DNA of 40,365 nucleotides from contig JACUUL010000013.1 in assembly GCA_014859345.1 (NCBI GenBank), positions 1 to 40,365 of the forward strand, in the 5' to 3' direction. This DNA is from Thermoleophilia bacterium. GTDB lineage: Bacteria; Actinomycetota; Thermoleophilia; BMS3ABIN01. Under the pieces are notes generated by a model. That model made no database searches. It saw only the letters and a program-made list of their open reading frames with translations, and was not told the origin of the DNA. This document shows positions 13,374 to 38,195 of the stretch, piece after piece (within the stretch, counting starts at the first letter, position 1; each line of letters starts with the position of its first letter). A program made the translations under genes and the position numbers.

Positions 13374-13907
13374 TTAGGCTCTCTTGCCGACCTTGCGGCG
13401 GATATGTTCCTCAGCGTATTTGATGCCCTTGCCCTTATAGGGCTCGGGTGGCCGCAGGGAACGAATTTTCGCAGCCAGTTGCCCCACAACCTGTTTGTCG
13501 ATTCCCTTGACGATGATCTGGGTGTTCTTGGGCACTTCGAACTCCGTGTCTGGCTCGGGGTGGACAAGCTCGGGATGCGACTTCCCCAGCAGCAACTCCA
13601 GATTCTTCCCCTTCAGCTGGGCACGGTAACCTACGCCATTAATCTCGAGCTCCCGGACGAATCCTCTGGTTACACCTTCCACCATGTTCGCGATCAGGGT
13701 CCTGGTCAGCCCGTGCAACGCCCGGTGGGGACCCCGGTCCGAGGGCCGGCGGACCAGCACCGCGCCTTCCTCCATGACGATTTCCATCTCCGGTGAATAG
13801 TTGCCGGAGAGATGCCCCTTGGGGCCTTTGACATGCACGTCATGACCGTCGATTCTTACCTCGACGTCTTCCGGTATTGGTATTGGCGCTCTTCCGATTC
13901 TTGACAC
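13374..13907 (-). CDS. rplF: 50S ribosomal protein L6
   Basis: MSRIGRAPIPIPEDVEVRIDGHDVHVKGPKGHL ... PPEPYKGKGIKYAEEHIRRKVGK. Confidence 0.98.
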   Translation of the reverse strand: MSRIGRAPIPIPEDVEVRIDGHDVHVKGPKGHLSGNYSPEMEIVMEEGAVLVRRPSDRGPHRALHGLTRTLIANMVEGVTRGFVRELEINGVGYRAQLKGKNLELLLGKSHPELVHPEPDTEFEVPKNTQIIVKGIDKQVVGQLAAKIRSLRPPEPYKGKGIKYAEEHIRRKVGKRA

Positions 13908-13934
13908 TGACTAATTGCTCCCGTTTCTTTTCTC

Positions 13935-13994
13935 TGTCATTCTGAGGGGCGAAGCCCGAAGAATCCCGTGATCCTTCGCCCGCTCAGGTTGTCA
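13935..13994. repeat. REP-like palindromic element in the rpsH-rplF gap
   Basis: TGTCATTCTGAGGGGCGAAGCCCGAAGAATCCCGTGATCCTTCGCCCGCTCAGGTTGTCA; imperfect inverted repeat with a nested GGGC-GAA-GCCC hairpin. Confidence 0.7.
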
Positions 13995-14016: not shown

Positions 14017-14415
14017 TTACCATATGAAACAGACAACCTCGCCGCCGATGCCCTGCTTCTCGGCCTGGCGACCGGTCATCAACCCTTTCGATGTGGATAA
14101 GACCGCGGTGCCCAGCCCTCCAAGAACGCGGGGTATCCGATCCTTGCGGGCGTATACCCGGCGACCCGGCTTGCTGACGCGCTTGAGGCCGGAGATCACC
14201 CGCTGCTTGTCGCGGCCGTACTTGAGATCCAGGACGATGTTGTCAAAGCTCTCGCCCCGGACAATCGCGTAGTCGTTGATGTAGCCCTCTTCTTTCAGAA
14301 GCCTGGCTATCTCCGCTTTTAGCGTCGACGAGGGCATTTCGACGCTGTCCTTGAAGCCGTTGTTGGCGTTCCGGATACGCGTGAGCATATCGGCTATGGG
14401 ATCGTTAACTGTCAT
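14017..14415 (-). CDS. rpsH: 30S ribosomal protein S8
   Basis: MTVNDPIADMLTRIRNANNGFKDSVEMPSSTLKAEIARLLKEEGYI ... AVLSTSKGLMTGRQAEKQGIGGEVVCFIW. Confidence 0.98.
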   Translation of the reverse strand: MTVNDPIADMLTRIRNANNGFKDSVEMPSSTLKAEIARLLKEEGYINDYAIVRGESFDNIVLDLKYGRDKQRVISGLKRVSKPGRRVYARKDRIPRVLGGLGTAVLSTSKGLMTGRQAEKQGIGGEVVCFIW

Positions 14416-38118: not shown

Positions 38119-38195
38119 TGGCAGGGCAGGAGGGACTCGAACCCCCAACATCCGGTTTTGGAGACCGGCGCTCTACCAGTTGGAGCTACTGCCCT
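38119..38195 (-). tRNA. tRNA-Trp (anticodon CCA), encoded 3' CCA
   Basis: AGGGCAG acceptor pairs with CTGCCCT; anticodon arm CCGGT-CTCCAAA-ACCGG; T arm GGGGGTTCGAGTCCCTC; ends GCCA. Confidence 0.96.

Follow-up and report, generated by a model that had tools for sequence, protein, structure and literature searches.

What is the palindrome that lies between rpsH and rplF in this Thermoleophilia genome, and how did it get there? The window, a stretch of 40,365 nt that covers positions 1 to 40,365 of contig JACUUL010000013.1 (assembly GCA_014859345.1), carries a 60-base palindrome inside the 109-nt rpsH-rplF gap, at the place and with the sequence given in the original prediction, which had described it as an inserted, dispersed, REP-like element (Table 1). 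The palindrome is probably a doublet from a REP family, bare and partly decayed, that entered the spacer by insertion in the lineage of this genome.

The element is composed of two units, A and B, that face each other across 4 nt. Unit A consists of GTCATTCTGAG, an inner GGGC-GAA-GCCC hairpin and GAAGAATC, in this order; the nested hairpin and its ATTCT/AGAAT flanks had been anticipated. The tag of unit B reads TGAC on its own strand, a decayed TGTC. The TGTCA/TGACA-like ends that had been postulated do not form a clean pair: on the + strand, TGTCA stands at both the left and the right end.

Table 1. Features of the rpsH-rplF spacer and its flanking genes (window coordinates)
Feature	Position	Strand	Basis or remark
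rplF, downstream gene	13374..13907	-	gene call
Presumed rplF ribosome-binding site ACGGGAG	13918..13924	-	sequence reading; outside the element; same position in relatives without the element
Whole REP doublet, tags outside (HH), inserted in the rpsH-rplF spacer	13935..13994		sequence, fold, genome search, relatives' gaps
Unit A, GTCATTCTGAGGGGCGAAGCCCGAAGAATC, zero mismatches to consensus	13936..13965	+	consensus match
Outer stem of unit A, left arm ATTCT	13939..13943	+	sequence; Y/R covariation
Inner hairpin of unit A, GGGC-GAA-GCCC	13947..13957	+	sequence
Outer stem of unit A, right arm AGAAT	13960..13964	+	sequence; Y/R covariation
4-nt spacer CCGT between units	13966..13969		shortest in the bacterial-family set (range 4 to 48 nt)
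Unit B, TGACAACCTGAGCGGGCGAAGGATC, tag and outer stem decayed	13970..13994	-	comparison with consensus
rpsH, upstream gene	14017..14415	-	gene call

A genome-wide search bears out the predicted dispersal. In the 2.08 Mb of this genome (122 contigs), GTCATTCTGAG occurs 11 times and its reversed control 0 times. Several of these 11 short matches fall short of a complete unit; the unit pattern GTCANNCTGN{4,28}GAAGNATC yields 9 matches versus 0 for the control. These copies, set against empty controls, show that the window element is no chance match. Inside the window, a search for GTCATTCTGAG that allows up to 2 mismatches shows no excess (11 found versus 8.5 expected), and the repeat is visible only on the genome scale. 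The copies examined lie mostly between co-directional housekeeping genes, which we named by reading their translations: rpsH-rplF, pyrR-pyrB, purB-purC, gap-pgk and ybaB-recR, with further copies near rbfA in the infB cluster and upstream of a gltD-like gene. At gap-pgk, where this genome has a REP unit, two g6 relatives (L249 and L250) have a GC-rich palindrome, GGGATGTTCCCGCC...GGCGGAAACATCCCG.

The unit folds as a hairpin with covariation in its stem, and the YGTC tags lie outside. Its consensus is YGTCATYCTGAG-(variable stem)-CGAAGRATC, with an outer stem of 5 bp that begins A, T, followed by an internal loop and then by the variable inner stem. At the Y/R position of the outer stem, units of the bacterial family to which the genome belongs have CG 55, TA 22, TG 4, CA 3 and CT 1 times (p 3e-13); in other phyla, GC (5) and AT (2) are also seen among 101 units in which this position is not fixed by the search pattern. 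The inner stem is highly variable (GAGCGAAGCGA, CCGCTTCAGCGG, CACTTGAAAAGTGC and others), and a shuffle test of its pairing is weak in the bacterial family (2.79 bp versus 2.64) and clear across phyla (2.94 versus 2.29). The YGTC tag (T or C before GTC) is present in 70 of 73 bacterial-family units and in 193 of 201 units of other phyla, TGTC being far commoner than CGTC. The units have CTG, CTC, CTT or CCC tails; CCA is outside the eight commonest tails in the bacterial family and is found in 13 of the 201 units of other phyla. Doublets across phyla have their tags outside in 56 cases versus inside in 15.

The element is absent from the rpsH-rplF gap in all 18 same-family relatives compared, none of which is of the same genus; their gaps of 23-169 nt contain other sequence. 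This absence identifies the element as an insertion, as had been proposed. In G007, which has a gap of 26 nt, the aligned flanks come within 5 nt and 19 nt of the two ends of the element; the insertion ends are placed to within these additional nucleotides at the window site. Other units also have orthologous sites that lack a unit: upstream of leuB, between pyrR and pyrB, and downstream of an ilvB-like gene. The unit pattern is found 0 to 38 times in the 18 same-family relatives, with no control matches, and 0 to 3 times, mostly off consensus, in other families of the class. In ribosomal operon gaps of g3-genus relatives (L211-L216; rpsH-rplF of L043, L045 and L046) another repetitive sequence occurs, with motifs GAACTTTGAACTT or GGATNNTGGATAA.

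Does the operon use the palindrome or merely tolerate it? Both had been suggested. The whole element folds with -27.2 kcal/mol on either strand (z -3.9 on +, -2.9 on -, relative to dinucleotide shuffles), units A and B folding jointly and nearly all shuffles folding worse; in the mRNA the palindrome would form one long hairpin of -27 kcal/mol. Such a hairpin may play a part in processing the mRNA or in its stability. A hairpin selected to set rpsH and rplF expression would agree with this fold in the transcribed strand, with the location of this genome's copies mostly between co-directional genes, and with independent doublets in the ribosomal protein operons of two relatives (rpoA-rplQ and rpsS-rplV in G002, rpsQ-rplN in G010). 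These doublets occupy other gaps, however, and the position of the window copy is not common to relatives, unit B has lost its tag, and the preference for sites between co-directional genes would also be left by selection against gene disruption. Rfam finds no match at the element, either at the gathering threshold or at E 1; the sole Rfam match of the window is a tRNA gene (38122-38195, - strand). The element contains no promoter-like or terminator-like site, its stem lacks a T-run tail, and it is not an intrinsic terminator. We regard a selected RNA hairpin as quite unlikely. Tolerance is the best-supported, the simplest and most likely reading of the insert: one unit is half-decayed, the copy is seen only in this genome, and the insert sits past the rpsH stop and ahead of an intact presumed rplF ribosome-binding site, which itself lies in a stretch that resembles the one ahead of rplF in relatives lacking the element.

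We then asked what could have moved the repeat. The usual suspect for REP movement, and the one named in the original prediction, is RAYT, the REP-associated Y1 transposase. The genome does contain one Y1_Tnp gene (L027 554-1216, contig C95), yet this gene is flanked by TATTTCGGGGACA repeats and not by the REP units described here; its surroundings resemble the published TIRYT, in which GGGGWSAS repeats lie beside the gene. Within the bacterial family, Y1_Tnp shows no positive association with REP copies (4/9 versus 7/10), and the copy-rich relatives G014, G012 and G016 have no Y1_Tnp. In other phyla, units are near 4 of 30 Y1 loci, and the 8 units found within about 1.5 kb versus 2.4 expected would favour a link; half of them, however, come from a single locus, the GTAG tag is missing from the units, and 9 of 38 copy-bearing genomes, one of them with 408 matches, lack Y1_Tnp. 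Since copies are found in genomes devoid of Y1 genes and the Y1 gene of this genome carries another repeat, RAYT was rejected as a requirement: a Y1 transposase is not required. That RAYT moved this REP at all is highly improbable.

A different transposase is tied to part of the copies. Some doublets of the bacterial family lie in elements of 140-167 bp with ends of the ACTGATCATCCAAYTRGCTCAGG type, and at least one doublet of this genome is in such a MITE (G000:C38, locus L261; flanks TTAAGATC/TTAAGATA). Ends of the same type also bound IS1595-family transposons (L402, with a perfect 8-bp duplication, L403, L404 and L407). Of the 12 MITEs with both arms, 7 show an 8-bp target duplication, their flanks agreeing at 7 or all 8 positions, versus 2.4% of random pairs. 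Downstream of a comM-like gene, a whole MITE in G016 faces an empty sister site in G012; at the copy upstream of rng in G016, half of the MITE has gone through internal deletion. IS1595 matches track REP copies (8/9 versus 1/10, p 0.001; the contrast is also seen within two genera), in a comparison that counts MITE-borne copies as REP copies and in which related genomes are not independent. These data give good support to a second route in the bacterial family, by which some doublets would serve as the core of IS1595-type MITEs and be moved in trans by a DDE transposase. In G012, G018 and G010, IS1595-type arms lie about 100 bases from many contig ends, as if the assemblies had been broken by near-identical copies, and the copy counts of these three genomes are probably lower bounds.

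The window copy could itself be the left-over core of a 140-167 bp IS1595-type MITE that was placed by a DDE transposase and whose outer arms have decayed or been deleted. MITEs with exactly such a core and 8-bp duplications exist in relatives and in this genome, the rng-upstream copy documents loss of half a MITE, and in Coxiella burnetii truncated copies of QMITE2 resemble REPs. The fact that IS1595 matches accompany REP copies in the bacterial family leaves room for such an origin by loss of MITE arms, although the association test includes MITE-borne copies. The flanks of the window element argue otherwise. They have no inverted arms (score 6), and the bases beside 13935 and 13994 (TTTTCTC and AACTTGC) are unlike, with neither an 8-bp duplication nor an arm-defined end. 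By eye, the window flanks had appeared similar to IS1595 arms; this likeness was rejected, given the score of 6 and an rplF-side stretch that matches the native leader of relatives. The genome has MITEs but no IS1595 match. Most doublets are bare: 21 of 27 in the bacterial family have no detected arm, and bare doublets are the majority in other phyla as well. We therefore consider a MITE remnant somewhat unlikely at this site.

The favoured reading, a doublet that arrived bare, calls for a route of its own. The doublet itself may be the mobile unit and, like a REPIN, be copied with no duplication of its target; around bare doublets, the best signal for a target duplication had a z of 2.5 among several hundred settings, which we take as none. 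Copying by an enzyme might proceed via the hairpin of the doublet in single-stranded DNA. As the search found no enzyme for bare doublets, we infer this enzymatic step.

Capture of doublets by transposons may be more general than the IS1595 case. Among 72 doublets from other phyla, inverted arms that exceed the 99% control flank 11. A few of the 11 are tandem repeats of the unit itself, and the arms of the remainder vary in sequence. When the inverted-arm test is applied among relatives, many share the same arms. In Anaerolineae/Chloroflexi (L304, L312 and L326), doublets or units have other arms, TAGTACTACAACG, and in Betaproteobacteria (L314) and Clostridiales (L320) they are flanked by GTTTGTTGAA and TTTATAGTAAACG. 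These five loci look like MITEs, with different transposon ends around the same core.

The closest described relatives of the repeat are the CGTC-tagged REPs, which were reported in 2013 from 5 phyla with no transposase and with the warning that bulged types had possibly been missed (Di Nocera et al. 2013, PMC3733652). Both sets share a CGTC or TGTC tag, a stem that starts with AT, a predominance of HH doublets, heterodimers, and an intergenic location mostly between co-directional genes. In the window, unit A has the tag, which is decayed in unit B. Two features differ: the stem of the published superfamily is a plain 8-9 bp, whereas here 5 bp precede an internal loop and the variable inner stem, and its 3-nt unpaired tail is mostly CCA, in contrast to CT or CC, seldom CCA, here. 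Because it lacks both the 8-9 bp stem and the CCA tail, we classify the repeat as a variant and not a member of the CGTC-tagged REPs. As for transposases, the present repeat shows no association with Y1_Tnp, and part of its bacterial-family copies are in IS1595-type MITEs. dRS3 of Neisseria and RPE-4/RPE-6 of Rickettsia, placed in CGTC-1 and CGTC-4 (PMC3733652), are alike in superfamily layout, the feature compared here. Read on the opposite strand, the ATGAC motif noted in RPE-4, -6 and -7 (PMC3767692) gives the GTCAT end of the present units.

REPINs and GTAG REPs (PMC3116915, PMC2817692) likewise have inverted doublets as the apparent mobile unit and no target duplication. They carry a GTAG tag and come with RAYT, whereas the present units carry YGTC, many genomes that bear copies have no RAYT, and units do not flank the gene. 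QMITE2 of Coxiella burnetii (PMC5896051) offers a parallel for the MITE-borne copies: this MITE, 150-190 bp long, contains direct repeats and a REP, and its shortened copies look like bare REPs. Its REP is of the GTAG type, however; the MITEs described here have IS1595-type ends, and for most bare copies no MITE origin can be traced. A literature search for the literal sequence returned only oligonucleotides and unrelated matches and no repeat paper; we found no paper that names this repeat in a search that covered mainly openly available papers, and an earlier description in the subscription literature is possible.

The original prediction held that palindromes of this type are seen in many bacterial genomes, and the scan of other phyla agrees. 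Genome contigs were scanned with GTCATTCTGAGN{6,20}CGAAGAATC, and the phylum was taken from the record title. At least 120 stretches match this 20-letter unit pattern, and the matches listed spread over more than 20 phyla, including Bacteroidota, Chloroflexota, Bacillota, Campylobacterota, Acidobacteriota, Omnitrophota, Patescibacteria, Elusimicrobiota, Planctomycetota, Verrucomicrobiota, Armatimonadota and Actinomycetota. A looser pattern is found in all 38 whole genomes chosen, with 2-437 matches each versus 0-1 for the control; these genomes were picked for having at least one copy, and the counts give no frequency among all genomes. Named strains include Helicobacter marmotae (408 matches), Sedimentibacter hydroxybenzoicus (85) and Campylobacter troglodytis (84), and an Armatimonadota MAG recorded as one chromosome has 24.

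We tentatively suggest that these repeats form one YGTC REP family with a near-fixed 20-letter consensus, which may be mobile in more than 20 phyla through a conserved host process with no dedicated transposase and may have been captured repeatedly as the core of MITEs whose transposon ends are unrelated. In 2013 the CGTC-tagged REPs had no known mover; the present sample is much wider, more than 20 phyla among the matches listed versus 5, with up to 437 matches per genome. It shows that RAYT is not required and, in one bacterial family, connects some of the copies with an IS1595-type DDE transposase. Across phyla, a 20-letter consensus that stays the same stands against an inner stem that is free to vary: both the constant letters and the fold must be recognised in some way, a prediction that can be tested directly. 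In IMG/VR viral contigs, at least 120 stretches have the 20-letter unit pattern (L417-L496), and phages, or mis-sorted host DNA, may carry the unit between phyla.
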